From: a virus
Reading direction: 5' to 3' (one strand)
IMG/VR virus record: IMGVR_UViG_3300033146_002149
Location: 1 to 55,341 of that record
DNA length: 55,341 nucleotides
A program made the translations under genes and the position numbers. A model generated the notes under the pieces. It saw nothing but the letters and a program-made list of their open reading frames with translations. It made no database searches and was not told where the DNA came from. Numbering within the stretch: the stretch's first letter is position 1; every line of letters starts with the position of its first letter. Below are positions 4,751-36,538 of the stretch, piece by piece.

Positions 4751-7700
4751 CTATTTTATTACATTGAATTGCTTATAAAGATCTTCACGCTGGGCATTTA
4801 ATTTACCAAGTTCAGTCAAGACTGCCGTGGATTGCTGTGGCAACTCTTTAAGTTTGTTTTCTTTCGATTTATTTTTACGTAAGGCACTTTGATAGGCTTC
4901 ATAAGTTTTCATCCCTTTAAAAGCTTCTTTATTCATATTAAGGAAGAGCCGCTTATTAGTTGCTTCCTCAAAAGACTTTTTGAACTTCTTTACTTCTTTC
5001 CCTGCCTTGTTAAAATCTTGCTCAGGAATACTCTTCTTAAACTCAACTCCTTTGCCCATATGCCAGTAATAAAGTTTACCAATTCCAGGAATAGAATCTA
5101 CAGACCGGATGCCTTTTGAAACATCTCCAGTAACATCTTTCGATAGGGCATCTACAAACTTTGTCGGAGGTAAAATTTGGCCTATGATTGCCGATCCTAG
5201 ACCTTCCTGATTTATCTCTGCTTTCATATATCTGGAGGCTCCACCAAGGGTAAGAAGGTTTTCAATTACGTGATCTTCAAACCTCATTTCCTTGCCTAAC
5301 ATTAAGTCTTTTATTTCATCCGCCCCAGCATTAGCAAGTGTTAATAAGGTAGTTATGGCAACCATATTACTTATGCCTGTTATTATCTTATCTTGCTCAC
5401 CACTTTTAATGTTGTTAAACACCTCTCGGCGAAAAACATCAAGCTGTTTTATTGTGTAAGTCTTTAGCATATAAAAAATTCTGCCATTGCCTGCATTAAG
5501 ATATTTTTCAGGCATTTCAGAAAGTGCTACTGGCTGAAAGTCCAACAATCTATGGTAGACCAAAAGTTTTACGTTGTCCGTAATTGGGTTTCCAAGTAAA
5601 TCTTGTATGACTTGATTAGATTCTTTCCCAAAAATCGGTCTGATATCCTTAAGTAGTTGCTGCCTACCAGCCTCTGTACTTGCCCTATTTTTATAGTTAT
5701 CTAAAGAATTGTTTATCAACACCTCTTTACCGATGGAGTCCATCTTCTCAAGACCAACTGCCCAGAACACTTTAGATACCGCTTTGCTTAACGAATCATT
5801 TCCTGCAAACTCTTGTGCAATTCTATCCAGGCCTAAGTTTTCTTTAGTAATATTTGACCTTTTCAATACCGCAGCATTGAAGTTTTTTAAGGTGTTGCTA
5901 AATCCCCTGGGTGTCCAAACCTTTCCAACATACATTGCCCAGGCAAGATCACCAATCTGAGTAGCGGCCGACGTAAAGCTGCCCATGGTATCTATGTAGG
6001 AAGCATTCTTAATTGTATTTGTAATACCTGTTGTGCCGTGCTCGTGGAATCTGGCGTCCAGAATATCATTTACTAGCTTCTCATCTTTTTTCCCTAACTC
6101 ACCGGAGATCATCAAATCTGAAATATACGTCCCAATGTTGTCAGTATAATCTCGTTTGTTCTTATACTCTTCGATCTTCACCGAATTGAGTTTTATATTA
6201 TCTTGGAGGGATTTAATCTTTTTGCTATAAGCATCTTTATTTGTTGTATCTGCTTCGGCAGTATCCAGTGCTTTGAGTTGTTCGTACTTAATTAGGTTTG
6301 TTTGATCTCGTTTAACTGCTGACTTTGCTTTACTTATCGCTGCTGGAACCTTACCAAAGAAGCGTCTTGCCTCAATTTTTTTAGTCATACTATATATGTA
6401 TGTCATCAATGCAGCGTCAGAATCTTCATAGAATTTTGCATACTTTGATTCAATCTCTTTAAATACTCTGCCTTGAATATTGCCCGGCCCAGATATTCCA
6501 GTAGGATGACCTAAGATTATGTTGCTAATAATATCAGCACGGACTTCAGGATAGGTACGATTAAACTCTTGGACACTTATATCAAGTTTAGCTGCTTCAG
6601 CTTTTATGGCATTACTATATATTGGTTGCTGTGAAATCTCTTGGGTTTCCTGAAGAAAGCCTTCCATATCTTTGATTACACGAGGCCAATATTCATCAAT
6701 ATAGCCTACATTGTAGCCAACATCTTCAGCATCTTGCCTGAGCTTATTAAGCTGTGTTCTTACGTTATTATAGTCTTCAGTCAATCCATACTTCTGAGTC
6801 AACTGATCAATTTTACCTGGATCACTTTGTTTTCTCGCCCAATCCCATTCGACTTTATCCTTGGCGGACATTTGTTTCTTTGCTTTAAGCATAAGCGGAT
6901 GAGCTGCTTCTAAGACGGATGCTACAGATTGGCCAGTCCGGAAATCGAGGTTTCGATATTCAGCAGCAAGCTTTGGACTTATGTTTTGTAATCGAGTATG
7001 GGTAGAACCCAACAGTTTGTCCCCAAGCAGCTTTATGTCAGTGGCCTTCATTCGGAAGATTTGCTGGATGTCTTTAAGTAAATTGTTTTTTTGGGTAAAA
7101 ACTTTGTCATATGTTTCTTGAGGGACTATTTGCTCCCTGGTTTCAAACATCGGCATGCCTTCACGCATTGCCTTGCTGCGCATCCGATCAGTGATCTCCA
7201 TACTTGGCAACTTCATTCCATCAACTTGAATAAAATCCAACTTAGCACTTCCCCACTGACCTTTACCAAATTCTTTCTGAAGCATCCTTGGAAGCATCTT
7301 ATTATAAAACTCTACCATGCCTTCCTTTCTGGGAAGATATTCACCAGTAGGATTTTCTTGCATGCGTTGCCATAACTTATCTGCTGTTTTATCTAAATAC
7401 TCTTCCCAAGTCTTCTTGGAATATTCACCTTCTTTATGTTTCAACACATCTTTAATATGATCATAGACATCATCACGAGAACTAATAAAATCAACTAAAT
7501 CAAATGTTTTACCTTCTAACTGTGCCGCCATCCCCATAAAGGCATCACCAGCAACTTGTGCAAAACCACTTAATTCTAAATCACCATCAAGATTTGTTTT
7601 CCAATTAAATGCTTCACTTCCCCAGCGTTTGACTTGTATATCCGCACCTGACCAAGCTATTTTGTTAAAACCATTCTCTGCAGCATACCTTACCATTCGC

Positions 7701-10700
7701 TTCATACCCAACATTACAGCATTTTCAGAGAATGGATTTCGCTCAATCCCTTGATCACCATCAGATATTAAAGATAAATCATTTCTAGCTTGTTCTTGTG
7801 TTATTTCGCCAAGAGTAAGAAGCTGATTAATTTTATTTTTTAACATCATATCTGATCGTACTGTAGGCATCCCATTAGGATTTCTTTTTACTGGGATATT
7901 ATAAAAAGAATATAAGTCTTTACTTTCACCTTTCTTTCTTAATTCCTGATCCCAATCACTTTGAACTTCTTCAGCATGAAGTATCTTGGAACCATTTTCA
8001 GCAAATCGGGTTAATATTCTAAAATGAACTACTGGATTAGAAGTGTCACCCCAATGAGCATTGGAAGTATACTTTGTTTTTCCAGGTAGAGTTATAATAA
8101 GTTCTTTGTAATCTTGACCACCGGCTTCTTTGTAAGCATAAAATTTAGTGCCTGTTTCCTCAGAAAAGAAATCACTCCGAATTGTTAAAGCATCTATCTC
8201 ATCCTCAACTTCTAATTGCCTTTGCTGCATTAAAGGAGAAAGATTTTCTTCTTGATCAAGATAGGCTTGTTCCGAATAAAGAGCTTCTAATTCTTGTTCA
8301 ATATAAGAAAAGTCATCTAACACAACCTCTTCAAGCTTCACCTGATGTTCATTAAACCAAGTTGTTATTTCATCCTTAGTTAATTTCTTCTGTGGATTTT
8401 CTAACAACATTGCAGACAACCCAGTCCAATCAAGTTCATCCTTTTTAATTCCTGGAGCTTTTTTAATATTATTTAACCACGCTCCAGCTTTAGCAGACTT
8501 CATATTGCTAGCATCAATGGTCTTGGCAATAGTGGAATACCATTTTTCAGCAGTAACTTCTGTTTGAGGCTTAATCGTTTGAACTGACTTACCGTTTACT
8601 TGCCTTTCGTATATTTTGCCACTTTCAACTTCACTAATCAAGCCTGATATGGATTGCCTACCAAGCCCAAGCATTTTATTGAAAAATTCCATTATCTTCT
8701 GGATAATTTTCTCAAAAGTTGTGCCTGCATAAGCATCTTTGTTAACCATTATCTGAGCGAACATATTAGCTCGATTTTCTTCCATGGCTTTTATAGGATC
8801 AGTATGAGTACTTAAAGCAAAATCTAACTGGCCTGCCTTATTAAGTTTATTAAACTCCTTATTCAACGCGGCATTATCAGCTTTAGTAATCATTCCAAGA
8901 TTGTCAAGAACATGCTTGTTTTCATGCCACAGAGTTCTATTATCAGCAAAATTCTCGTCGAGTAAAATATCGCTGCCTAGCGTAACACCGAGGATCTTAC
9001 CATTTTTTGACATTTGCCCAGTGGAGATTGCATACTGAATAAAGCCTTCCCCTGCGTCTTGGATACTCTGGAACGTGATGCCTTTACCATTTTTGAGTTT
9101 TACAGATATCAGGCCATCCTCATTTTGAAAGACTTCCTGATCTTTGTACATGTTCTTAATATCAAGGAGGCTTATTCCTTTTGAAGGTGTCTTGTCATTT
9201 CGGATTTCTGCCTGCATTATATGCAGTTTTTCTTGATTACGTTCCAACAATGCTACTTGATCAAGAACTTTTTGATCCCATAAAACGTAATTCAAATTAC
9301 CTTTACCCTCACTACGACTCATTCCATCTAAATACTTATTGCCTGGAATACCTAATGAAGCTAAATATTCTGAAGCAGCTTGCTTACTTCCAAGAACATA
9401 TCTTAATTCTTTGTAAAGTGCCCTGCCAGTAATACTTTCTTCCTTAATATGTTTAAGTTCTATCGGAGCAACTTTATCTTTATGCAGAAGTAAAAAATCA
9501 GTTACTTGCTTTAAAATATTTTTTACATTAGAATTTTGTTGCTTTAACGATTTGTCCCAATCCAAAAGTTTTGGTATAACAGAATCTGGAATGTCGAGCT
9601 TATATAATGAGCCTGATTGAGAAGGATATTTATTAAGTTTGTCAGTTAATTGTTTATGTAAAGATTCTTTACCTTTTAAAGAATTTCCAGAGATATCAGA
9701 AATATCTGCTAGTTGATTAACCAAATAATCAAAAGAAGAATCTAAATAAGATGCTCCTACTTCCTTACTGTCAGCACTATACCATCCAGCACCATAAGCC
9801 CAAGCACCTTCACCAACAACCTCTTTATTCATGATCATATCAAGGCGAGGCCGTCCATTTGGAAACCCAGGCTCTGGTTGCCATTGATGAGGAGTACCAT
9901 GATAAACTATTTGAAACTGCGGCGTAAAAGATTCAATTGCATTTTTATTAAAAACTCTAATAACATTAGCACCATCTTCAACTTGCCAATTAGCTTCAAA
10001 ACCTAAATCTTTCAAAGCCCAGAAAACTTGTGGATCTTCATAAAAGTTAAAGCTGCCTTCTTGCGCATTACTAACTTGCCCATCTTTACCGTTCAACTTA
10101 TTTATGTGAGCAGTCTTTTCAGCAATCTTATCTAATGCTTCAGCATGTTCAGGTTTTCTTGCATCGAATATTTTTTCTGGTGGAATGCTTAAAGTTGCTT
10201 CATGGACTGTACCAAACTTACTTGCTACAGTAGGATCTTCAGTTAGAAAATAACCTCGGTGACCATCAGGAAGATCCTTTCCTGACGTAAGCCCTTCTCT
10301 GCTTGATCCATGATAAAGTTTCCCAATAGCTTTTGTAGGAGCTAAATTACTAGCCTGCATTGAATCAATTAACTGCTTTTTAAGACGAGCAAGAAGTCTT
10401 TTTTGTGGTGCAGGTAATTTTTCTTTTGCTTCAAGGCTTTCAATTTCCCATTGAAGTTTCTTCTGGGCTGATGTTAGTTCTTCAGTAATTTGAAAAGAAA
10501 CTGGATCAATATTAGGTAATTCTTTTATTGCCTGCTGTTGACGATCAGTAATTTGCCCAAAAGCATAAATATCTGATGGATATGAATAACGCATCTCAGG
10601 ATCAATTTTTTTACTTGCTTCTGGCCCAACATCATGAACATTTCTAGCCAGAAGAACTGATCCAGGAGCTAATAATTTTGCTTGCTTATCAAATTTAACC

Positions 10701-13700
10701 TTATCAAAAAAAGCTGTTTCTTGCTCAAAGTCGATAATTTTAGTTACTGGAATCTCCAGAGCTTTAATTATTCCTTTAGCTCCAGAATAACTTCTCGCTA
10801 TATTTTTATCTGAACTACCAAAAAGATTATAACCTTCTCTACTTAAGTGTCCAGGTCTATCTTTACCCATACCACGGTAAATTTTTACAGTATCCGTAAA
10901 AACCATATTTTGATAATAGATTTCTTTTAATTTTTTTTCTAATGCTCTCCCTTCTGGGGTTTCCATAACATCTATTTGATCAAAGATATCCATTGCATTA
11001 ATTTTATCATCTAAGGCTTTTTCTTTTGCTGTTAATTTTAAAGTAGTTTTCTGTTTTTTATTCGCAATTTCATGCGGGAGGCTTATTCCTTTTGAATGCG
11101 TTTGATCAGTTCGAATTTCAAAATAAGCTTTAACTGCGTCAGATGTACTATTCTTTTTATTTGGTTTTCCAAAGCGCTCAGTCTTATCTAACGCAGATTG
11201 ATACTTAGGTAATGTCATAGCATCAAACCAATCAGACATAGGTAATGATTTTAATTCATTAAGAAGAAAAAGATCCTCCGCAGTGAAAAAATCTTTTGCT
11301 TCTTTAGGCTTATTTCTTTCTGGTAATAAATTATCATCAAAAACAGCAATTTCATAAGCTCCTGAAGGTAACTTTTCTTTTGCTCCTTTAATCCCATGTT
11401 TAACCAATAGCTTTCTAGCTTTCTCAGCTCCTACAGTATGAACTAAAGCACCAATAACACCTCGACCATGTTTGAAATTTGATTTATGATTCTCAGCTTT
11501 AGTGATTTTTTCTTGTGTATCTAAACCACCTTCAGCAAGAGCTGCTTTAAGTTTTGGAGGTATAGGATCATTTAGGACATCATAAAAATCATCTGTTTCA
11601 ATAGATATTTTAGTCTCATCACCATATTTACTGTAAACATTTTTAGCTAAAGCTAAATCAGTAGAAAAGTATATTCCTGGCCCAAGAATACTACTTCCTT
11701 CACCAGAATGAAGCATGGCAGATAAAATATCGCCACCTCGATAAGAGCCATAATGAATAGCATCAGTTATTTGAAACTGCGGAGTAATTTTAAGCTTCTC
11801 ATTTTGCGCTGACAAATCCTGAGCTTCTTGCAGCAATGCTTTGCGTGTAGCCTTATCTTTTTCAACATCCAGCTCATTCATGATTTCGTCAATTCGAGAT
11901 TCATTCGAAGTTATTTGATCATCAATATTTGGCACAACTTCTTTTTTCATTGCATCTAATTGTTCTAATAAATCACTTTTTTGGCTAAGTAAATCATTTT
12001 CTTGTCCACGTAAAGTTGCTGATTTCTGTCTTAGGCGATCATAATCTTCTCGCTCAATATATTCATTTTCAAGTTCATTAATTGTTTTATTATATTCATT
12101 TTGAAGACTTCCTAATTGATCTTCATTTTCCTGATATTTAGATTTAAGATCAGTACGAATTTGATCTTCTTCCTGCTGTGTTTCAAGATCAAGGGCGGCT
12201 TGTTGATTTGCTTCTATGCCGACTTGTTGTTCATTTTTGAACACACTCGTTTCATCGGTTGGTAAGTTCTGTTTTGTTCTATCAATCAGGCCTGACTCAC
12301 CCATTCCTTGTGCTGAACCAAGTTTAACAGCACCTAATTGATGTTCTCCAGGAATTGTTCGAGCTCTATCTTGGCCAGTTGCCACCCTGTTGGGATCAGT
12401 AACATCCCCGAGGTCTTTCGCAATTTGTTGAAACCACCTTTGGCGTTTATACTGTTCAGCTAAAGGAACTGTACCTTTTAATTTTGTTGCCTCATAAGAT
12501 TCCTTAGCATCAAGATCTTCTTGTATCTTCTTTTCAATCTCTTTTGCATGACGGGCAAGAAATCTTTTCTTCATTGCAGCGCCTTGCTCTTTAAGCATTT
12601 TAATTTGCTGCTGTTTTTCTATTTCTGTTTTAACTTCTTGCCAATAATCATCTTCAATATTAGCACGAACTTCATTAGCTTTTTGTCGGGTAGATGCAAT
12701 AACTTGTTGACTTTTTGTCAAAGCATCTTTTTCTGCATTAATCTTATCAATAGCATTTACAATTGAATCTTGATAAGTAGTTATTTCCTTTAAAAGTTCT
12801 TTTTTCCTAATTTCAGCACGAACTTTTTCTACTTGATTTTTAGTAGTACTGATTACTTCTTCACTATGGGCTAAAGCCTCACGATCTTTTCTAAGTGCGT
12901 CAGTAGTATTAACTAAGTCATTTTGAAAAGCCTCTATTTGTTTAATGGCTTCTTTATTACTGATTTCTTGCCTGACTTGAGCTGCCTTAACTTTAGTAGA
13001 TGCAATAACTTCTTGGCTTCTAATAGAATCTTCTTGATCAGATATTTTATCTACCCGTGATAAAGCTAAATCAACTTGATAATCTTCAATACTTCTTTTA
13101 TTTTCTTGCTGGACATCTCTCTGTTTGATTTCTTGCTTAATCTCAGAGGCAAGTTTTCTTGTTTGCTGAATGTTTTGTTGTCCAGCAATAGTATTTCGTA
13201 TAGATGACTGATAATCACTAATAGAAGTTTGTCGATCTTCCTCTAGAATAGTTGGTTTATTCGCCGTAAGTATATCAGCAGATTCTTCTGCTCCTTTATT
13301 CACAGATAGTCCAATAGATTGCTCAAGGCCAGCTTCACGATTTTGCCGGAGTTCTTCTTCACGTAAGGATTTACCAGGCGGAACAACATTATCTTGGCTT
13401 TGTAACGGAATTGCCTTAGTAATCTGATTAGCAAGATTAACCATATCTATGCGGACTGCTTTCTTAGTATCAGCTAAACTTAAGTTACGTTTAACAGATT
13501 CTTCTTGCAACAGTTCCGGAGTAGATAAAAGCAACTGGAAGTTTCTTACTTGATTTTGCAAGCCTTCAGGAGTTTTATTAAATGCTTCTTGCTGGATGTT
13601 ATCACGCTTTGCTTGAAGCTCATAAAGTCGTGACGTAACCCCAGCTGGAGGATTCTCAACTGCCTCCAAGTTCCCAATTTGTTTATTTATCTCAGTAATA

Positions 13701-15019
13701 TCATCAGGCAGGGCAAAGGCATCTTTATTTATGCGATCGTCAACTGGGGTAGCTCCAGCAATAGGTACTTCTTCTCCAGTTAGTTTCGATACAATCTGGG
13801 AATTAACATCTGTTTCGGCAGTCAATTGAGCTGTAAAATCATCAATAGACATACCTTCAGCCTGGGCAGCTCTTTGCACTCTCAAGGGATTATTCAATAT
13901 CTTTGTATTAGCTGCATTTTGTTCCGTCAAAGATACTACTGCTTGCTGAATATTTGCTTCTCCAGCAGACTTAATATTATCCACACGTTCGTTAATACGT
14001 GCTTCTTGATCTGGTGCTTCCGAAGTTTTGCCCATCATAGTATTAGCTGCACCACCAAAGCCTCCGCCTACAACACCAGCAGCAGCACTTTCCAAGATTT
14101 CCCACTTATTATCATTTGTGAAAAACTTCTCATCAGTATTCAAAACTGTATTGAGTATACCAATCGCGGATTGTCCCGCTTCTTGTAAGCCTTCTTCGCC
14201 CATATTATGAACAATCTCAAGTGCTCCACGTTTAGCTGTTTTTGCACTCCCAGATGCGATACCATTAATCAGAGTTCCGATTAACTTACTATTCCCGCCC
14301 AGCAGTTCAAGTGCTCCAGACAAAGTACCTAAAGCAGCAGACATTGCTGGAGCTTTAACACCATGAGTTTCCAACAGATCTGCATACATTCCACCAGCTT
14401 CTTGTGTTGCTACCGTGGATACCATGCCAGCTTGGGCAGCTCTTGTCAATCCTTTCTTTGTTAAGCCTGTAATAAGTTTTTTAGCTGCAAATCCACCAGC
14501 ACCACCACCAAGTGCGGCAGTAGCCATACTTGGAAGTAACGAACCGATTGTGCCCTGAACAAAGTCTGCTGTTCCACCAAGTCCGGCCTTACCATCCCAT
14601 ACGTCTTTAAAACTATAGCGGGCAGGATTCTCAGCAGCTTCAGCCAAATTTCGGCGATAACCTTCCATACCAAAATCTTGCATCCTTTGACCAACATTAT
14701 CTGCACCCATATTCTCCAAAGCACGACCGGTCAATGCGACTGCTCCGTAACCAGCTCCTTGAGTCTGATCGATATTGCGTTTTATGCCTGTTATAAAATC
14801 ACCTTGAGCTTCAAGGTTCGCCAAGCCTCGTTCTTTACTAGCTTGCTGTTGCTTCACTGCATTTAATGTTTTGGGTGAATATACTTCTTGCTGATCTCCA
14901 AACAACACCTTATATCTTGGCTCATTTTCCCAAAGGTTATTATGCTGTTCTTCACCTATATCATCAATGAATTTATCATATCCATATTCTTTAATTGCTT
15001 CTGGTGTTGCTTTTGCCAT
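4751..15019 (-). CDS. Giant polyvalent virion protein (3422 aa) with ADP-ribosyltransferase-like segments and an HEXXH motif
   Basis: One uninterrupted frame of 10.3 kb. Visible parts in order: a glycine-rich hydrophobic stretch (about 150-190); a long coiled-coil/Q-rich region (about 430-860) with repeated units near 58 residues (SQQVIASTRQKANEVRA, SEEVISTTKNQVEKVRA); four ADP-ribosyltransferase-like cores opening at about 1089 (HYGSYRGG...GPGIYFSTD), 1381 (IYRGMG), 1570 (LYHGSSREG) and 1706 (VYHGTPHQW); HENKH, a zincin-type HEXXH, at 2032-2036; a polyvalent-protein module around EEVQSDWDQ (2347); a junction-like EGMPMFETRE (about 2620); and a helical C-terminal part with a hydrophobic segment near 3212-3237. 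Proteins of this class are thought to be packaged and injected, delivering effector domains to the host. Enzymatic activity is inferred. Catalytic residues beyond the motifs were not verified. Confidence 0.85.
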   Translation of the reverse strand: MAKATPEAIKEYGYDKFIDDIGEEQHNNLWENEPRYKVLFGDQQEVYSPKTLNAVKQQQASKERGLANLEAQGDFITGIKRNIDQTQGAGYGAVALTGRALENMGADNVGQRMQDFGMEGYRRNLAEAAENPARYSFKDVWDGKAGLGGTADFVQGTIGSLLPSMATAALGGGAGGFAAKKLITGLTKKGLTRAAQAGMVSTVATQEAGGMYADLLETHGVKAPAMSAALGTLSGALELLGGNSKLIGTLINGIASGSAKTAKRGALEIVHNMGEEGLQEAGQSAIGILNTVLNTDEKFFTNDNKWEILESAAAGVVGGGFGGAANTMMGKTSEAPDQEARINERVDNIKSAGEANIQQAVVSLTEQNAANTKILNNPLRVQRAAQAEGMSIDDFTAQLTAETDVNSQIVSKLTGEEVPIAGATPVDDRINKDAFALPDDITEINKQIGNLEAVENPPAGVTSRLYELQAKRDNIQQEAFNKTPEGLQNQVRNFQLLLSTPELLQEESVKRNLSLADTKKAVRIDMVNLANQITKAIPLQSQDNVVPPGKSLREEELRQNREAGLEQSIGLSVNKGAEESADILTANKPTILEEDRQTSISDYQSSIRNTIAGQQNIQQTRKLASEIKQEIKQRDVQQENKRSIEDYQVDLALSRVDKISDQEDSIRSQEVIASTKVKAAQVRQEISNKEAIKQIEAFQNDLVNTTDALRKDREALAHSEEVISTTKNQVEKVRAEIRKKELLKEITTYQDSIVNAIDKINAEKDALTKSQQVIASTRQKANEVRANIEDDYWQEVKTEIEKQQQIKMLKEQGAAMKKRFLARHAKEIEKKIQEDLDAKESYEATKLKGTVPLAEQYKRQRWFQQIAKDLGDVTDPNRVATGQDRARTIPGEHQLGAVKLGSAQGMGESGLIDRTKQNLPTDETSVFKNEQQVGIEANQQAALDLETQQEEDQIRTDLKSKYQENEDQLGSLQNEYNKTINELENEYIEREDYDRLRQKSATLRGQENDLLSQKSDLLEQLDAMKKEVVPNIDDQITSNESRIDEIMNELDVEKDKATRKALLQEAQDLSAQNEKLKITPQFQITDAIHYGSYRGGDILSAMLHSGEGSSILGPGIYFSTDLALAKNVYSKYGDETKISIETDDFYDVLNDPIPPKLKAALAEGGLDTQEKITKAENHKSNFKHGRGVIGALVHTVGAEKARKLLVKHGIKGAKEKLPSGAYEIAVFDDNLLPERNKPKEAKDFFTAEDLFLLNELKSLPMSDWFDAMTLPKYQSALDKTERFGKPNKKNSTSDAVKAYFEIRTDQTHSKGISLPHEIANKKQKTTLKLTAKEKALDDKINAMDIFDQIDVMETPEGRALEKKLKEIYYQNMVFTDTVKIYRGMGKDRPGHLSREGYNLFGSSDKNIARSYSGAKGIIKALEIPVTKIIDFEQETAFFDKVKFDKQAKLLAPGSVLLARNVHDVGPEASKKIDPEMRYSYPSDIYAFGQITDRQQQAIKELPNIDPVSFQITEELTSAQKKLQWEIESLEAKEKLPAPQKRLLARLKKQLIDSMQASNLAPTKAIGKLYHGSSREGLTSGKDLPDGHRGYFLTEDPTVASKFGTVHEATLSIPPEKIFDARKPEHAEALDKIAEKTAHINKLNGKDGQVSNAQEGSFNFYEDPQVFWALKDLGFEANWQVEDGANVIRVFNKNAIESFTPQFQIVYHGTPHQWQPEPGFPNGRPRLDMIMNKEVVGEGAWAYGAGWYSADSKEVGASYLDSSFDYLVNQLADISDISGNSLKGKESLHKQLTDKLNKYPSQSGSLYKLDIPDSVIPKLLDWDKSLKQQNSNVKNILKQVTDFLLLHKDKVAPIELKHIKEESITGRALYKELRYVLGSKQAASEYLASLGIPGNKYLDGMSRSEGKGNLNYVLWDQKVLDQVALLERNQEKLHIMQAEIRNDKTPSKGISLLDIKNMYKDQEVFQNEDGLISVKLKNGKGITFQSIQDAGEGFIQYAISTGQMSKNGKILGVTLGSDILLDENFADNRTLWHENKHVLDNLGMITKADNAALNKEFNKLNKAGQLDFALSTHTDPIKAMEENRANMFAQIMVNKDAYAGTTFEKIIQKIMEFFNKMLGLGRQSISGLISEVESGKIYERQVNGKSVQTIKPQTEVTAEKWYSTIAKTIDASNMKSAKAGAWLNNIKKAPGIKKDELDWTGLSAMLLENPQKKLTKDEITTWFNEHQVKLEEVVLDDFSYIEQELEALYSEQAYLDQEENLSPLMQQRQLEVEDEIDALTIRSDFFSEETGTKFYAYKEAGGQDYKELIITLPGKTKYTSNAHWGDTSNPVVHFRILTRFAENGSKILHAEEVQSDWDQELRKKGESKDLYSFYNIPVKRNPNGMPTVRSDMMLKNKINQLLTLGEITQEQARNDLSLISDGDQGIERNPFSENAVMLGMKRMVRYAAENGFNKIAWSGADIQVKRWGSEAFNWKTNLDGDLELSGFAQVAGDAFMGMAAQLEGKTFDLVDFISSRDDVYDHIKDVLKHKEGEYSKKTWEEYLDKTADKLWQRMQENPTGEYLPRKEGMVEFYNKMLPRMLQKEFGKGQWGSAKLDFIQVDGMKLPSMEITDRMRSKAMREGMPMFETREQIVPQETYDKVFTQKNNLLKDIQQIFRMKATDIKLLGDKLLGSTHTRLQNISPKLAAEYRNLDFRTGQSVASVLEAAHPLMLKAKKQMSAKDKVEWDWARKQSDPGKIDQLTQKYGLTEDYNNVRTQLNKLRQDAEDVGYNVGYIDEYWPRVIKDMEGFLQETQEISQQPIYSNAIKAEAAKLDISVQEFNRTYPEVRADIISNIILGHPTGISGPGNIQGRVFKEIESKYAKFYEDSDAALMTYIYSMTKKIEARRFFGKVPAAISKAKSAVKRDQTNLIKYEQLKALDTAEADTTNKDAYSKKIKSLQDNIKLNSVKIEEYKNKRDYTDNIGTYISDLMISGELGKKDEKLVNDILDARFHEHGTTGITNTIKNASYIDTMGSFTSAATQIGDLAWAMYVGKVWTPRGFSNTLKNFNAAVLKRSNITKENLGLDRIAQEFAGNDSLSKAVSKVFWAVGLEKMDSIGKEVLINNSLDNYKNRASTEAGRQQLLKDIRPIFGKESNQVIQDLLGNPITDNVKLLVYHRLLDFQPVALSEMPEKYLNAGNGRIFYMLKTYTIKQLDVFRREVFNNIKSGEQDKIITGISNMVAITTLLTLANAGADEIKDLMLGKEMRFEDHVIENLLTLGGASRYMKAEINQEGLGSAIIGQILPPTKFVDALSKDVTGDVSKGIRSVDSIPGIGKLYYWHMGKGVEFKKSIPEQDFNKAGKEVKKFKKSFEEATNKRLFLNMNKEAFKGMKTYEAYQSALRKNKSKENKLKELPQQSTAVLTELGKLNAQREDLYKQFNVIK

Positions 15020-30441: not shown

Positions 30442-32496
30442 TTAATAACCTGTAATTAAATTAGCTTCAACTTCATTAAAAATATCTGATTCCTCATAAG
30501 CTTCGAGTTCCCAATATGGCCTTGCTACCGCTCGATCCAGGCCAGACATGACTAAGTAGCGAACACAATCCATTAAATGATCATTTGATTTTACAATCTT
30601 CCCGTTTTCGTCCCGTCTGTAGATGCGAAATTCTGAAAACCAATTGACCAACGATGAGAATACTTTTAACCGGTTTGTGGATAGCATTTGCCATACTTTG
30701 TACAGGCCAGCTTCTACGGATTTATTAGCGTTAGATATATCAAGACCGTGATCTAAATAGATTTGAAACATTTGCTTACCATCTTCTTGTGACCTGCCGT
30801 GAGCAGCAGAATCAATTACGCCTGGAATCCATAACCCGCGAGCTTTAATGCCTTCAGCGTGAATAACAGGCTCTGCTTGACCTTGATAGTACTCAGAGTA
30901 TAAGTAAGTTATCTTTGCTGTAGGATCAGTAGCCGCCCATAAACATGCAGTTTTCTTCCATCCGATATCTAAGGCATAACAGCGGTGCCAATGTTCGGGG
31001 ATTTGAAAATCTGCCACAGTAATGTTAGATTCTTGGATTGGGAATATTGCCCCAGAACCAAGTTGAGGAATACCTTTTGACCTGGCTTCTCGTTGGTGGG
31101 GAGGTAATGCGGCAAACAGCTTGTCTTTCTGCTCTTTAGTAAGATGTGGAGCATCATCCCAGGTTGCCATTACCAAGCATTTGCTACCATCTTGACGTTC
31201 CTTCACCTCTCCGTCAGGCATAAACTGCATAACGGTGTCCGTGAGGCCTTCCAACGGGGTGAATGTAAGCATGATCAGGCCGTTTGTAGTCATGGTTCGA
31301 GTTACGCACTCAACGTATATGGACATCGGGCATTCTTCATCCAACCAAATTAAGTCTTGCTCTGTACCTTCGAATGATTTTCTGCCTTCAGCATATGACT
31401 TGATCTTACAGCGTGAAATTCCACCAGATATATGCTTCACGAGGATGGTATCTACTGCATTTGGAACGCCACCGGCCTTGGGAGTAGTCTTAATGATGTG
31501 TTTTTTCGGAATTAGTCCGGTACCAAATTCTTCTGGATTCCCAATGAGCTTGAGTTGTACGATATCTCTAGCGGTAGTGGATGTTGTTCCTGCTGCCCAG
31601 CATGTTATAGGGCGAGTGAATCGATGACCTTCCCACCAATCTGGATACCTACCGGTTAGATGCAACGTAGTTTCATATGCACCGATGCCTTCAGAGTTAT
31701 GGGTAACAATTCCACCAGTAAGAATAAAAGTATGTTCTGAATGAGATACTTCAATACAAGTACACGGAGCTGTTTCACCTAAATTAATTTGTGTTATTTG
31801 ACAATCAATAAGGTGACTATCTAATTGTTGTGTGTTTTTGAGATAATTTTCACTTTGAGTAAAATAGTCTTCAGTGATCGGGAGGCAGTTGCCGCTGCTA
31901 TTAAGATGAACAACTCTTGGAACAAAAATAACTTTCCCAGCAACAATAAATTTAATAAGTTGTTCCGTATTTGTGACTTCCGGAAAGTTGTTTGTTAATA
32001 ACTCTTTGGCAGTGATGTCTTGTGACTGGCTGTCTTGTGACTGGCTGGACAATTGTCGTTGCCGTAGGCCGGAGGAATATTTCCAAAGATGTTCACCACA
32101 ACAAGTTACCTCTTCATCGGAATCAAAGAGTATTTTATAAAGTTGTTTTTCTCCTTGAGGATAAATACCAATAACATCGGTCAATGAACCATCAGCTGCA
32201 ATAACAACCTCACCTAAAATAAGCTCCTCAATAGCTTTCCATCCATATGGAGTAGCTACTTGAGTTCCATGCTTAAGAGCTTTGCCTATCCTATTTGCAG
32301 CCATAATACATCGTTCAGAGTATTCTGTGCCGAGTTGAAAGAACTTCATGTGCTTGGGATAATTGAATCTTGATAGCAGGCCAGTTTTAGGATAATATTG
32401 ATCTAGCTTGGCTTGTTTTAAGCGGAGGTTTTTTGCTCGCAGAAGTTTTAAATACTCTTCTTTGGAATCCCTATCCATTGTGGAAATATCAACCAT
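30442..32496 (-). CDS. Large terminase with intein in Walker A
   Basis: 684 residues unspliced, about 489 after removal of the intein (residues 73-267). The N-extein ends AANRIGK and the C-extein starts SEGIGAYE, so splicing restores the Walker A motif AANRIGKSEG of terminase ATPases. Later motifs: Walker B-like LIWLDEECP, coupling LTFTPLEG, nuclease acid YALDIGWKKTACLWAATDP, GVIDSAAHGRSQEDG and NDHLMDCVRYL. The protein cuts and pumps concatemeric DNA into the capsid with the portal. The gene stop lies one base before the portal start. The insertion means ATPase activity should appear only after splicing. Confidence 0.9.
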   Translation of the reverse strand: MVDISTMDRDSKEEYLKLLRAKNLRLKQAKLDQYYPKTGLLSRFNYPKHMKFFQLGTEYSERCIMAANRIGKALKHGTQVATPYGWKAIEELILGEVVIAADGSLTDVIGIYPQGEKQLYKILFDSDEEVTCCGEHLWKYSSGLRQRQLSSQSQDSQSQDITAKELLTNNFPEVTNTEQLIKFIVAGKVIFVPRVVHLNSSGNCLPITEDYFTQSENYLKNTQQLDSHLIDCQITQINLGETAPCTCIEVSHSEHTFILTGGIVTHNSEGIGAYETTLHLTGRYPDWWEGHRFTRPITCWAAGTTSTTARDIVQLKLIGNPEEFGTGLIPKKHIIKTTPKAGGVPNAVDTILVKHISGGISRCKIKSYAEGRKSFEGTEQDLIWLDEECPMSIYVECVTRTMTTNGLIMLTFTPLEGLTDTVMQFMPDGEVKERQDGSKCLVMATWDDAPHLTKEQKDKLFAALPPHQREARSKGIPQLGSGAIFPIQESNITVADFQIPEHWHRCYALDIGWKKTACLWAATDPTAKITYLYSEYYQGQAEPVIHAEGIKARGLWIPGVIDSAAHGRSQEDGKQMFQIYLDHGLDISNANKSVEAGLYKVWQMLSTNRLKVFSSLVNWFSEFRIYRRDENGKIVKSNDHLMDCVRYLVMSGLDRAVARPYWELEAYEESDIFNEVEANLITGY
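31696..32280 (-). other. Class 3-type mini-intein in the terminase Walker A motif
   Basis: 195 residues between GK (position 72) and S268. The first residue is Ala, not Cys or Ser, so it cannot be a class 1 intein. It carries the WCT triad expected for class 3 inteins: EHLW in block B (Trp at intein residue 66), CIEV in block F (Cys 175) and THN at the end (Thr 193, His 194, Asn 195), with Ser as +1 residue. No homing-endonuclease domain fits in this length, so it is a mini-intein. It contains a small internal DSQSQD duplication (about residues 80-90). These are sequence observations. Splicing itself is inferred. Confidence 0.85.
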
Positions 32497-32498
32497 TG

Positions 32499-33164
32499 TT
32501 AATCAGCCATATTGCGAAAAGGATCAAAAAGAACGTTTTCTAAAATAGTTTCATCATCTAGCGAAGTGGAAGCTTCAATAGGTGGAAAATCACCAGGAGT
32601 ATCTGGAGTATCTGGAGCAGATTCTTCTTTTGGTTTATTGGTGTTGATTGAATTTTCCATGGCTGCGATTTCTGCGTCGATTTCCTCATCCGTCTTGGTT
32701 TGTAAAGTCATGTCGATGGTAAGTTTATCGGGGGCTTTATAGCCATTGCGGTCGAGTATGTCTTTAGCGGCTGATAGTTGGACATTAAAAGGTGCTTTCT
32801 GCTTAACATCTAAAATTCTACTAAATGCGGAAAGAGCATCTTCGTTTAGGGCAATCAATTTTTTACGTACATCGATTGTGGATTCTTTCATTTTGTCATG
32901 TAGGCCGTTCATGTAAGCTTTGCCTAAAGGTGAATGAAGAATAATTGATACGGTGCTTGGGGTTATTTCCAGTTTTTCAGATATCTCGTTATTAGTGAAT
33001 CCATTGAAGGACATTTGGATTATGTTGCGATGGCGAGCTTTGAGTTCTTTTAGCATAAGGGCACCTTCAATTGGGATGATAGTTAAAAATGGTGGAACTG
33101 CTTTAATAGATAGAGCTTTCTGTGAGGGTAGTTTAACTGTACCACGTAATGGGTTTGGTGTCAA
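32499..33164 (-). CDS. Small terminase subunit
   Basis: 221 residues from a TTG at 33164. The ATG at 33056 (MLKELKARHRN) has GAAGG 8 bases upstream and may be the real start. Helix-turn-helix at FNGFTNNEISEKLEITPSTVSIIL recognises the packaging site. A coiled helix follows (KKLIALNEDALSAFSRIL, then RNGYKAPDKL) and an acidic, proline-rich tail (about 165-221) that may bind the large subunit. The gene lies two bases upstream of the large terminase gene and ends at the divergent control region. Confidence 0.8.
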   Translation of the reverse strand: MTPNPLRGTVKLPSQKALSIKAVPPFLTIIPIEGALMLKELKARHRNIIQMSFNGFTNNEISEKLEITPSTVSIILHSPLGKAYMNGLHDKMKESTIDVRKKLIALNEDALSAFSRILDVKQKAPFNVQLSAAKDILDRNGYKAPDKLTIDMTLQTKTDEEIDAEIAAMENSINTNKPKEESAPDTPDTPGDFPPIEASTSLDDETILENVLFDPFRNMAD

Positions 33165-33296
33165 GGGAAATTAACAGGTTTTTGAAAATAGTTGATAGGT
33201 GTGTTTTGTGCCGGAAAGCCTCCCTTATAAATATGCGACTCTAATATATAATAGGCAAGTTGAAAGAAATACTCAGTTGTTTTTTGAAAACTGGCC

Positions 33297-33310
33297 GTTC
33301 ACAAGTGAAC
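33297..33310. repeat. Intergenic palindrome GTTCA-N4-TGAAC, copy 2
   Basis: GTTCACAAGTGAAC, embedded in a wider dyad (CTGGCC to the left). It is followed on the plus strand by CGACTTTTTA, so a T-run is present. It lies about 130 bases upstream of the small terminase start at 33164. It could be an operator for the leftward late promoter or part of a terminator. Confidence 0.6.
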
Positions 33311-33485
33311 CGACTTTTTAAAAGGAGTCATTGTGAAAAACTGTTTGCTCCATTCTTGTATATAGACAAGTAAAAGCACTATCAGAAAACCGAGGCATCC
33401 TTATATAGAGATTGTGCGTACCTTAATTGAAAGCAGCAGCCAACAGGTAACAGCAGCCAATTGGTTAAGGATACCTGATGGTAGG

Positions 33486-33530
33486 TAGCTAAAAATAATA
33501 AATAGCTAAAAATAATAAATATCTAAAAAT
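33486..33530 (+). repeat. 17-bp tandem repeat array, 2.6 copies
   Basis: TAGCTAAAAATAATAAA occurs at 33486-33502 and 33503-33519, and a degenerate third copy begins at 33520. The core CTAAAAAT recurs every 17 bases. It is directly followed by two GGTAAGGATAT-like copies (33532 and 33551) and the extended -10 promoter. It may bind a regulator or support DNA melting. Confidence 0.6.
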
Positions 33531-33559
33531 GGGTAAGGATATAAAAATAGGTAAGGATA

Positions 33560-33568
33560 TGTTATAAT
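33560..33568 (+). promoter_or_regulatory. Extended -10 promoter candidate
   Basis: TGT followed directly by TATAAT, a perfect -10 with the TGn extension, at 33560-33568. No good -35 lies 16-18 bases upstream, consistent with an extended -10 promoter. It would drive transcription to the right toward the early genes, through about 390 untranslated bases. Confidence 0.55.
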
Positions 33569-33870
33569 AGTGACAAGTTCAGAATAATAAACCCTGGCAA
33601 ACAGCATGATTATGTAATGATATCAACTAGTTACAGCATACTCACCACATGTTTACCTTATAACGGTTTACAATTTTAAACTTCAGCAAACTGACTAAAC
33701 ATCCAATGATTTCAGGTAGTTATGGTTATTTTGGAGTAATAATCATGATAGTTGGTTCATTATCCTAAACTTTTAACCCCACCATGGGGGTAAGGAGGCT
33801 AAACAGGGGTATAGCATAATGAGTAATGATATCAGTGGGTTGTGAGATAAATCGGGCTTTGTCGGGTACT

Positions 33871-33886
33871 TGGCACAGGGTTTGCA
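33871..33886 (+). promoter_or_regulatory. Sigma-54 (RpoN) promoter candidate
   Basis: TGGCAC AGGGT TTGCA, with the preceding T giving TTGGCAC. The GG at 33872-33873 and GC at 33884-33885 are separated by exactly 10 bases, the diagnostic -24/-12 spacing. It is 75 bases upstream of the ATG at 33961, which has a GGGAG SD. This would give a start near 33897 and a leader of about 65 bases. Transcription would need a host bacterial enhancer-binding protein. Confidence 0.7.
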
Positions 33887-33960
33887 ATGATAACCAAACA
33901 AGTAGAAAAAAGTTTTTCTGCTAAAACATTTTAACCTTTATCTAGTAGGGAGAAACAAAC

Positions 33961-34161
33961 ATGAATAACATACAAAAGATGATAGCAACCTTACGTTGTG
34001 CAAAACAAGAAGTTAGACAGATTGAATATGAGTTAAACCAAGAACTTATGACTCTTGACAGCGGGATAAAACAGGCATACTTGCAAGGGATTATTAAGTT
34101 TAATTTTACCGTGATGCCATACACCATTGAAAAGATGCAAAAAGAGCTGGGGGAAAGATAA
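33961..34161 (+). CDS. Early helical protein, 66 aa
   Basis: First gene of the rightward arm, with GGGAG SD before the ATG. Entirely helical, charged sequence (MIATLRCAKQEVRQIEYELNQ) ending MQKELGER. Two bases separate it from the next gene. Not recognised. It is the first product after the sigma-54 promoter candidate and may act very early in infection. Confidence 0.65.
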   Translation: MNNIQKMIATLRCAKQEVRQIEYELNQELMTLDSGIKQAYLQGIIKFNFTVMPYTIEKMQKELGER

Positions 34162-34163
34162 AA

Positions 34164-34415
34164 ATGAGTAAAAAATTCATTATTGGATTAGATAGTAAAA
34201 ATGAAGCGCTAACAAAGTGGCTGGTTAAAGAGTTGACTGATTATTTCCATGAGTTAGGGATAACCATAATAAGGACAACTCAAGAAAAAAATGTTTCTCG
34301 AGCAAGATTGCTATGCTCCAAAGATATGGAGCAACAAAGTTATGAAGCAACAATTGATTTGTTACAAAAACATTTAGGCGGTCTGAACCTTGTTTTTAGT
34401 CCAGTTAATTCGTAA
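34164..34415 (+). CDS. Early protein, 83 aa, alpha/beta
   Basis: Begins KKFIIGLDSKNEALTKWLVKEL, and continues with HELGITIIRTTQEKNVSRARLLCS and a helical end (YEATIDLLQKHLGGL). It has the look of a small alternating alpha/beta fold. The SD is GGGGGAAAG just before the start. Not recognised. It is co-transcribed with 33961-34161. Confidence 0.65.
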   Translation: MSKKFIIGLDSKNEALTKWLVKELTDYFHELGITIIRTTQEKNVSRARLLCSKDMEQQSYEATIDLLQKHLGGLNLVFSPVNS

Positions 34416-34425
34416 TATACTAAAT

Positions 34426-34453
34426 AATGTACTGGTCATAAGATCGGTACATT
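34426..34453 (+). repeat. Hairpin between early genes
   Basis: AATGTAC (34426-34432) pairs with GTACATT (34447-34453) around a 14-base loop, with partial pairing GGTC/GATC inside. It lies between genes ending at 34415 and starting at 34496. It is followed by a tandem 14-bp duplication (CATTTAATAAAAAG, twice) that sits just before the SD. Possible attenuator or mRNA-stability element. Confidence 0.5.
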
Positions 34454-34495
34454 TAAAACATTTAATAAAAAGCATTTAATAAAAAGGAAATTATC

Positions 34496-34987
34496 ATGAC
34501 AACAGAAGTGAAAACATCACAGAGTATTTATATTACATTGGATACATTGACAACTGAAACATCTGTACCTGGACAAAGCCCAAAAATGCAAAAACATACA
34601 TTACCACGTAAGGCATTCCCTACCAGTGAAGAGTTTGAAAATGAAGAGTTGTTGCTAGCATGGACGGAAAAGAATAAGGTAACTCACGCCTGCTTGCAAA
34701 AAGGTATCAAAGCGCATTTAATTGACATTCGAGCAAAGTTTAAATCATGCAAAAAAGATGATACATGGTCGAATGAATATGGGCAAAAAAATGTAAATGC
34801 TTATCCATGGGAGGTGCAAACCCGTCCGAATAGCAAACAAAATGAGGCAAAAGCAGCAGTTTTGACCGCTGGAATGGATATGGGAACCGCAATGAAAGCT
34901 GCTGGCCTAACAGATGAGTTAATCAGAATAAGCTTGCTTCCAGTATATGGTAAAAATGACACTGAAATGATCCTAGCTAAGTTGTAA
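34496..34987 (+). CDS. Early protein, 163 aa, unknown function
   Basis: The SD AAAAGGAAA precedes the ATG. Residues about 1-50 are T/S/E-rich. A central part has NEELLLAWTEKNKVTHACLQKG and lysine clusters, then PWEVQTRPN, and the C-terminal half is helical (AKAAVLTAGMDMGTAMKAAGLT). No motif of known enzymatic type is seen. It is the last gene before the large gene-poor control region. It may bind nucleic acid, judging by charge only. Confidence 0.65.
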   Translation: MTTEVKTSQSIYITLDTLTTETSVPGQSPKMQKHTLPRKAFPTSEEFENEELLLAWTEKNKVTHACLQKGIKAHLIDIRAKFKSCKKDDTWSNEYGQKNVNAYPWEVQTRPNSKQNEAKAAVLTAGMDMGTAMKAAGLTDELIRISLLPVYGKNDTEMILAKL

Positions 34988-35060
34988 ATGTAACAGTAGT
35001 TAAAGCCCATAAGGTTAGTAAGTGTAACAACTTGCTGGCCTTATCCGTGTTTGAATCATG

Positions 35061-35169
35061 ATACTTGTTAAGACAACCCTTTTAGGGGATGATGACCTTG
35101 TAGGGTAGGGCATATTTGGATTGGAAGGTCAGGAGATGGGTTGTCAAGTGAAAGGGTTGTTACAAGTAT
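35061..35169 (+). ncRNA. Candidate structured RNA with two alternative long stems
   Basis: ATACTTGTTAAGACAACCC (35061-35079) can pair with AAAGGGTTGTTACAAGTAT (35151-35169) in a near-continuous long stem. The same left arm (GACAACCC) can instead pair with GGGTTGTC (35138-35145), because the right side holds two near-copies, GGGTTGTCAAGT and GGGTTGTTACAAGT. Inside is GACCTT...AAGGTC. More hairpins follow up to 35280. The alternative folds suggest a switch or regulatory RNA. No family is recognised. Confidence 0.45.
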
Positions 35170-35359
35170 GCGTGGTCTGGCGTCCGTGGGATATTATGAC
35201 CCGGAGAACCGCTTAAAAATGCCTATCCTGCACGTTTTTAGCATCATAAGACCGTGGTTAGAGGGTAAACACGTCTAACCATACCAATAATTAGCCTACC
35301 GCACTAAAAACCACCATGCTCGTCCCCGCCTGTACCAATAGTGACAAGCATACTTCCAG

Positions 35360-35388
35360 CCATTCTAGCCTGTTCCCCAGTAGAATGG
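35360..35388 (+). repeat. Perfect 8-bp hairpin
   Basis: CCATTCTA (35360-35367) pairs exactly with TAGAATGG (35381-35388) across a 13-base loop. It lies in the gene-poor region and no T-run follows. Could belong to the upstream structured RNA or serve as a protein-binding element. Confidence 0.5.
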
Positions 35389-35404
35389 TTCCTGAGTTGG
35401 GTGT

Positions 35405-35429
35405 GGTAATGTTTACGAAAACATTGACC
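35405..35429. promoter_or_regulatory. Palindromic operator candidate with ATGTTTAC half site
   Basis: GGTAATGTTTACGAAAACATTGACC is a near-perfect dyad with arms AATGTTT and AAACATT. It is followed by a C-tract at 35430. It resembles, in inverted order, the dyad at 35593-35618 preceded by a G-tract, so the two form a mirrored pair flanking about 160 bases. Confidence 0.55.
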
Positions 35430-35483
35430 TCCCCCCCCCTGCGTAAAATAGGAGTAGATAGGAGTAAATAGGAGGCATTAGAT

Positions 35484-35502
35484 GTTACGTATGATACGTA
35501 AC
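35484..35502. repeat. Perfect 19-bp palindrome
   Basis: GTTACGTAT G ATACGTAAC is a perfect dyad of nine bases each side around one G. It lies between the mirrored operator-like dyads, directly after a cluster of TAGGAG-type repeats (35447-35473). It is long enough to be a dimeric regulator or replication-initiator site. Confidence 0.6.
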
Positions 35503-35592
35503 AATTAGTTCTTCATTTTTTTTTTGTAACTTTAAAAAGGAGGTATAGCTCTATATGTAACCCTATATATCATATTCTCGTACAGGGGGGGA

Positions 35593-35618
35593 GGTGAATG
35601 TTTACGTAAAACTTCACC
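35593..35618. promoter_or_regulatory. Palindromic operator candidate with TTTACGTAAA centre
   Basis: GGTGAATGTTTACGTAAA and the following ACTTCACC form a 26-base dyad, 22 of 26 positions symmetric. It shares the ATGTTTAC half site with sites at 33649, 35409, 35918, 38169 and 38199. It lies just before the iteron-like array. Confidence 0.55.
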
Positions 35619-35683
35619 CACCATCAAGTTATGCCCACCATCAAGTTATAACCAAGCATAAGTTATAACCAAGCATAAGTTAG
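35618..35683 (+). repeat. Iteron-like array, four AAGTTA cores every 17 bp
   Basis: CCACCATCAAGTTATGC is repeated at 35618 and 35635. AAGTTATAACCAAGCAT is repeated at 35643 and 35660. AAGTTA cores fall at 35626, 35643, 35660 and 35677, exactly 17 bases apart, so one regular array underlies two different unit sequences. Seventeen bp is close to the spacing of known replication iterons. This is the best origin candidate in the window. Confidence 0.6.
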
Positions 35684-35873
35684 CCAGCATTTTTTTGGGT
35701 TCAGGCGGTTATTTAGGGTCGTCGGCACCACGGTTGCTACGCACGGCGCGTTTCACGCCATGTTTCACGGGCTTTAAACATTTTTACCTAGAATCATACC
35801 GGGCATACCCGGGCATACCCAATCAACCATTTTGACCACGTTTTTGTTAGGCAAATTATTTTTCACTTTTTTG

Positions 35874-35903
35874 TTGACAGGCGCACCGGAGCCGTGATAT
35901 AGG
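35874..35903 (+). promoter_or_regulatory. Sigma-70 promoter candidate upstream of small early genes
   Basis: TTGACA at 35874-35879, then TATAGG at 35898-35903 (spacer 18). It carries CCGGAGCC in the spacer, a motif seen again near 41880. A GTAAACAT half site follows at 35918-35925. The first gene starts at 35977. Confidence 0.65.
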
Positions 35904-35976
35904 TATAACCGTATCAAGTAAACATCACAACAGGCCACAGAATATACTTTCCACTTTTTTACCCAAAGGAGCTTTT

Positions 35977-36303
35977 ATGATCTTATGCAATCGTTGTGGT
36001 TATTGTTGCTGCAATTATGCAGTAATAATTGTTAAACCAACAATTGTTAAACCAAGCCTAATCATAGCAGAACTTTCATCAGATGCCTTCACCTTATTTA
36101 ATGGAGATGGTACAACTTGTTGCCCACACTTAACTTGGGAAAACAATCAAGCAGTTTGCCTTTTACATGATTATAGTTGGTTCAAAGATTTACCATGCCA
36201 CCAATATAATCACAACCTTATTTGTATGATTGGTCAATATGTTGTAAAGAATAATAAGAGTAATCCTTATCAATATTTAAAACCTTATTTTGTGAAGCAA
36301 TAA
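35977..36303 (+). CDS. YkgJ-type cysteine-cluster protein
   Basis: 108 residues. The N-terminus has CNRCGYCCC at 4-12, and further cysteines occur at CCPHL and VCLLHDYSWFKDLPC. The CxxCGxCC start followed by distant cysteines is the hallmark of YkgJ-type iron-sulfur or metal-binding proteins. An internal 15-bp tandem duplication makes IVKPTIVKP. The SD AAAGGAG is 7 bases upstream. It is the first gene after the promoter at 35874. Metal chelation is inferred from the family. Confidence 0.7.
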   Translation: MILCNRCGYCCCNYAVIIVKPTIVKPSLIIAELSSDAFTLFNGDGTTCCPHLTWENNQAVCLLHDYSWFKDLPCHQYNHNLICMIGQYVVKNNKSNPYQYLKPYFVKQ

Positions 36304-36379
36304 ACTTAGGAGCCACAGCATTTTACAAAGATGAGATTCATTATATTGATACTACAAAATTATTTAAAGAGGTATTATC

Positions 36380-36538
36380 ATGGAAATATTAGCAATTATT
36401 ACAATTGGACTAGTTATAATCATTAAAGTTATTCAACAAGATAAAATACGCCAGCAGGCTAGGTATACCGAAAGACTCCGCCTAGCCTTGTATTTGAGAG
36501 ATCAACGACTTGCTGAAACAATCCTAAGTTTAAACTAA
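36380..36538 (+). CDS. Short single-membrane-span protein, 52 aa
   Basis: MEILAIITIGLVIIIKVIQ begins with a hydrophobic stretch of about 17 residues that looks like one membrane span, followed by a basic amphipathic tail (RQQARYTERLRLALYLRDQRLAE). SD AGAGG lies 7 bases upstream. Its length falls below common gene-finding cut-offs. Not recognised. Could be an early membrane-targeted host-modulating peptide. Confidence 0.6.
   Translation: MEILAIITIGLVIIIKVIQQDKIRQQARYTERLRLALYLRDQRLAETILSLN

Follow-up and report, generated by a model that had tools for sequence, protein, structure and literature searches.

A sigma-54-type element at the head of the early arm

Is the early arm of this phage read by host RNA polymerase carrying sigma-54? 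The question is raised by a short sequence, TTGGCACAGGGTTTGCA, in the divergent control region of the window, by which we mean the whole stretch of DNA analysed, a 55,341-base IMG/VR virus record. The rightward arm carries replication genes (helicase, exonuclease, ligase and DNA polymerase) and the leftward arm the terminase and structural genes; it is from this gene content, with the replication genes downstream, that we infer which gene is the first early gene. The features of the region are collected in Table 1.

The consensus of sigma-54 promoters is YTGGCACGrNNNTTGCW. As the initial annotation had described, the sequence has the form TTGGCAC-N5-TTGCA with GG-N10-GC spacing; it begins at 33870, one base before the start of 33871 given there, and is separated from the ATG at 33961 by 74 nt, where 75 bases had been claimed. 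It is directed toward this gene and leaves room for a start site and a ribosome-binding site. With its GG and GC, the N10 spacing between them and the TGGCAY-N5-TTGCW context, the presence of a sigma-54-type element in the window is confirmed. The claim that it is a sigma-54 promoter at the early arm stands as regards the type, position and direction of the element, and promoter activity is predicted from its sequence.

A scan of both strands of the window finds a single exact copy of the core, TGGCAC-N5-TTGC. The site scores 19.7 bits with a position weight matrix (PWM) whose frequencies approximate the published sigma-54 consensus, the exact-pattern results being independent of the PWM. When the 904-nt leader was shuffled 20,000 times with its dinucleotides preserved, no shuffle reached 19.6 bits or more on the + strand, and by chance the two strands of the window together should carry 0.005 sites of at least this score. 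Matches with two mismatches numbered 41 in the window against 43 by chance; since this looser matching is at chance level, it is the exact match that counts. A weaker second site at 35722 (14.9 bits) was set aside, its score being at chance level. The start in Table 1 was placed by a rule drawn from established sigma-54 promoters, in which about 12 nt separate the GC of the -12 box from the start of transcription.

Table 1. Features of the control region and the beginning of the early arm (window coordinates).
Feature	Coordinates	Strand	Remarks
terS	32499..33056	-	divergent from the early arm, on the other side of the leader; starts at 33056
Divergent control region (leader)	33057..33960	+	904 nt; holds the sigma-54 site
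Conserved palindrome GTTCACAAGTGAAC	33297..33310	.	also in relatives without the sigma-54 site
CGAGGCATC, first half of conserved leader block	33391..33399	+	second half, TTGTTCCC, degenerate in the window
Candidate sigma-70 extended -10, TGTTATAAT	33560..33568	+	from sequence; rival to the sigma-54 site; no good -35; first gene begins about 390 nt downstream
Sigma-54 -24/-12 element, TTGGCAC-AGGGT-TTGCA	33870..33886	+	GG at 33872-33873, GC at 33884-33885
Predicted transcription start	33895..33899	+	from the rule, about 12 nt after the -12 GC
Likely ribosome-binding site, AGGGAG	33948..33953	+	from sequence; 7 nt before the ATG
First early-arm gene	33961..34161	+	66 aa; no assigned function
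Second early gene	34164..34415	+	83 aa; no assigned function
Third early gene	34496..34987	+	163 aa; family conserved in relatives, used to locate their leaders

The first early gene has a weak likeness to the first early ORF of a relative, L003. The 163-aa early protein had no match in Pfam, PHROG or GenBank phages, and a nucleotide search of the window against GenBank phages gave no match either. A profile search of genome contigs with the early-protein alignment yielded no named host. No Rfam family was found in 33000-36500 and no tRNA in the window.

The element is conserved in one clade

Relatives were gathered through TerL, TerS and the 163-aa early protein, giving several dozen contigs. 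In nine leaders the early strand carries 25 sites of at least 14.5 bits, with 0.11 expected per strand: single sites in the window, L136 (the same as L003), L007, L137 and L144, four-site arrays in L152, L107 and L091, and an eight-site array in L139. The opposite strand carries two, in L107 and L091. By blastn the leader of the window has no similarity to those of L003 and L007, and parts of terL and terS align.

A TerS tree with 42 rows groups six site-bearing phages together (82/88); the window lies near this group without firm placement. The site label changes twice on this tree, against a mean of 6.6 after shuffling, with 0 of 500 shuffles as low (the weaker site of L134, 16.1 bits, was not counted in the label). 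Branches around L160-L188, L135 and L159 are without the site, and none was present in the stretches examined of EBPR podovirus 1, CV-1-33, StenR_269 and ct2G2228, the nearest TerL relatives among sequenced phages. L082/L083, which is the phage closest in the early protein (68%), has three sites, located after that gene and not before it. As the site is found in one group and is missing from other branches, it is a trait of one clade and not of the whole family. The conservation in relatives that the initial annotation had put forward as a check is thus seen at the same place in the nine leaders of this clade, and does not extend to the other branches or to the position of the sites in L082/L083.

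Two further proteins of these phages deserve mention. The TerL of the relatives (L003, 3619-6171; L006, 5001-7553) is 850 aa long, with Hint-like and LAGLIDADG homing-endonuclease domains in mid-protein, and from these domains its insert is probably an intein; in the TerL of the window (30442-32496, 684 aa) the insert is shorter and matches Hint weakly, and it may be a mini-intein. A virion-arm protein of about 3421-3422 aa (4751-15019, - strand) had no Pfam, PHROG or PDB match.

Tandem arrays in other phages

Such arrays are found in many phages and almost never in bacteria. At least 120 IMG/VR stretches carry two sites in tandem and at least 120 carry three; the same triple was found 16 times in 84,980 bacterial and archaeal genomes, these being raw counts from collections that differ in size. 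A permuted triple motif of the same base composition had no match in IMG/VR. Of the 16 bacterial and archaeal matches, eight resemble repeats in coding sequence whose copies are almost identical; among the remaining eight, L311 has a set of sites nearly matching that of the viral contig L247.

Among the matches listed, 24% of the viral clusters of at least two sites (n = 184) lie within an ORF of at least 100 aa, against 69% of random positions, and arrays reach 10 sites, also among the matches listed, some of them with the sites of the two strands interleaved. In twenty array records the number of exact sites ranges from 2 to 19, with 0 to 1 per strand for the reversed pattern. A TerL gene lies within the few kb next to the array in L222, L308, L334, L335, L341 and L352, and the TerL genes beside arrays belong to at least two families (phrog_2 and phrog_38). 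Two array regions compared with GenBank phages gave no match over the array itself. Bases at positions left free in the search also fit the known sigma-54 consensus: across 537 non-redundant array sites, the base before TGGCA is T or C in 0.89, the base after TGGCAY is G or A in 0.99, and the first base after the motif is A or T in 0.84.

Several forms of multiplication were seen. L210, L222, L227, L238, L257, L264, L340 and L349 carry arrays related to one another, in which eight or nine sites on the two strands are interleaved, with a unit of about 47 nt; that of L222, the one array of this set whose genes were checked, adjoins TerL and portal genes. L254, L263, L262 and L191 carry 12-19 sigma-54-type sites spread over several kb and not in one array, as if many genes each had a sigma-54 promoter of their own. 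JAIXLO010000160.1 (G040:C75, 383,427 bases; L318, L419-L421) has more than 30 sigma-54-type sites, nearly all on one strand, over 67 kb (296976-363343). It was binned as a Chitinophagales MAG and encodes a virion structural protein and an RNA ligase, both of phage families; it is probably a jumbo phage with sigma-54 promoters throughout.

Array spacing and the possibility of a decoy

Neighbouring sites on the same strand are mostly 25-29 bp apart and those on opposite strands mostly 17-26 bp. With the footprint of the holoenzyme, neighbours at this spacing would clash, and such tight spacing favours a role besides plain promotion: the arrays may titrate sigma-54 or its holoenzyme, or may offer a dense set of alternatives, with one in use at any moment. 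A simple early-promoter reading leaves the multiplication into arrays unexplained. A helical periodicity of the spacing was considered and rejected; inspection by eye suggested peaks at about 27, 36, 41 and 47, but at 10.5 the Fourier amplitude shows none.

The elements, above all the arrays, might accordingly be decoys or holding sites that titrate host sigma-54 or its holoenzyme, with host sigma-54 genes turned off or polymerase parked on phage DNA, and the single site of the window would then be an ancestral or reduced form that drives little transcription. The arrays of up to 10 sites, partly two-stranded and too tightly spaced for neighbouring holoenzymes, agree with such a role, as do their location mostly outside ORFs and the lack of recognisable activator sites in the nine leaders; it is also established that the sigma-54 holoenzyme binds without firing. 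However, 25 of the 27 sites in the clade of the window face the early arm, the arrays there have their best site in last place, and the one site of the window would titrate little unless copy number were high. We regard a decoy as an unlikely explanation of the element, if the one among the alternatives most to be reckoned with.

Possible sigma-70 boxes and a conserved cassette in the leader

The extended -10 further upstream in the leader could be a sigma-70 promoter for the early arm, judging by its sequence; a 12-base promoter scan did not report it. In most relatives, moreover, the last sigma-54 site is followed after N16/17 by TATTAT or a close variant, matching a -10 box at 4-5 of 6 positions, and 18 IMG/VR stretches, some of them from other phages, hold this combination. 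TTGGCA might thus double as the -35 of a composite promoter that sigma-70 transcribes and sigma-54 modulates or blocks. In the window, though, the position 16-18 nt after TTGGCA matches a -10 box at 2 of 6 bases, so that no such box is present there, and the GG-N10-GC spacing and the flanks are those of sigma-54. For this element a composite promoter is quite improbable.

In L404, L408, L415, L417 and L418, single sigma-54-type sites are followed by ATCCTTATTATATA. No leader palindrome was found upstream of them, and in most no GAGGCA block either; the combined element recurs outside the clade of the window.

The leaders also share a cassette that occurs whether or not the sigma-54 site is there. 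It consists of the palindrome GTTCAYNNRTGAAC and then (C/T)CGAGGCATC, with a constant 39 nt to TTGTTCCC in the clade, and is found in the window (33297-33399), L136, L007, L139, L107, L091 and most TerS relatives. We consider it a candidate packaging (cos/pac) or origin site. The palindrome GTTC-N6-GAAC was rejected as a specific activator site, being present also in 24 of 40 site-free leaders.

Search for the factor that reads the element

A search for sigma-54 (PF04552) in 24 phage records, the window included, gave no match, and neither did one for the enhancer-binding domain (PF00158) in 35 records; control genomes matched in both searches. A self-sufficient phage sigma-54 system is thus not apparent in these records, in which neither a phage sigma-54 nor an enhancer-binding protein was detected. 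The eight bacterial assemblies in which a non-coding array was found all have a sigma-54 gene. In the nine leaders no recognisable activator-binding site was found upstream, nor an NtrC-like site; the sole NifA-like match in the leader of the window, at 33560, overlaps the extended -10.

The motif might instead be bound by a protein that the phage encodes, whether a DNA-binding protein, a replication initiator or a polymerase, and resemble sigma-54 sites by chance. Arrays of this form are typical of iterons, and in several phages they lie in the divergent region beside the terminase genes. Yet the same motif with sigma-54-like flanks is kept across phage lineages with different terminase families, which points to a host factor rather than a phage factor. 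T7-type polymerase (PF00940) had no match in 15 records, the controls likewise giving none, and the virion-arm protein of about 3421 aa had no polymerase match, nor did it resemble the annotated virion polymerase of StenR_269 in any meaningful way. We hold a phage-protein site to be very improbable. A chance match without function, with which the chance-level number of two-mismatch matches in the window would agree, is the least credible explanation, being contradicted by the shuffles and by the conservation in the clade.

Discussion

We consider it likely, going by sequence and conservation, that the element is a promoter of the early (replication) arm to which host sigma-54 holoenzyme binds and which a host activator fires. 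The sigma-54 holoenzyme binds its box without opening the DNA; opening requires an activator driven by ATP. In the window, the host polymerase carrying host sigma-54 would sit on the -24/-12 box as a silent closed complex, which a host enhancer-binding protein would open; a transcript would start at about 33897 and the 66-, 83- and 163-aa genes would be read. As no activator site was recognised, the activator may work from solution or through an unfamiliar site. The element may operate beside a sigma-70 promoter further upstream, and part of early expression would be tied to the state of the host cell. The analysis shows the element in its place before the early arm, conserved in one clade, multiplied in relatives and other phages and fitting the consensus at the bases left free in the search, and it detected no sigma-54, enhancer-binding protein or T7-type polymerase in the phage records searched; binding, opening by a host activator, the start site and early timing are inferred. 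Against a promoter speak the lack of a recognised activator site upstream, the branches without the site, the position of the sites in L082/L083, the possible sigma-70 boxes and the array spacing.

The element shares with bacterial sigma-54 (RpoN) promoters the -24/-12 boxes, the GG-N10-GC spacing and the preferences for flanking Y and R. It differs from them in lying in a phage early control region, in the tandem arrays of relatives and other phages and in the lack of a recognised activator site. The same motif is found at sigma-54 binding sites mapped genome-wide in E. coli, many of which are not classical promoters (PMC4591121), and the main text of that paper contains neither 'tandem' nor 'prophage'. 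The nearest parallel that we found is the control of phage genes in Alphaproteobacteria by CtrA, a global regulator of the host, proposed there to defer lysis (PMC9437464). Phage genes would be under a host regulator in both cases, CtrA being a transcription factor and the factor proposed here an alternative sigma factor. In the open-access literature we found no reports of phage sigma-54 promoters or sigma-54 arrays. In the Psp response of enterobacteria to filamentous phage, which involves PspF and sigma-54, infection also meets a sigma-54 activator; the promoter there is the host's, whereas here it would be the phage's. We know of no arrays in CtrA-controlled phages.

A broader proposal is one that we make tentatively, leaning slightly against it: in many tailed phages of diverse lineages, tandem and partly two-stranded sigma-54 arrays beside the terminase and early-control region may serve as decoys or loading platforms to which sigma-54 of the host, or its holoenzyme, is drawn, and so tie infection to host physiology. 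Such arrays would be absent or nearly so from bacterial chromosomes, and the promoter of the window would be a single-copy member of an undescribed class. Sigma-54 promoters are silent until a host activator senses its signal, so a phage with its early genes under sigma-54 would read the state of the host before committing itself. Judging by the arrays, phages may commonly target or exploit sigma-54, a habit that has escaped notice.
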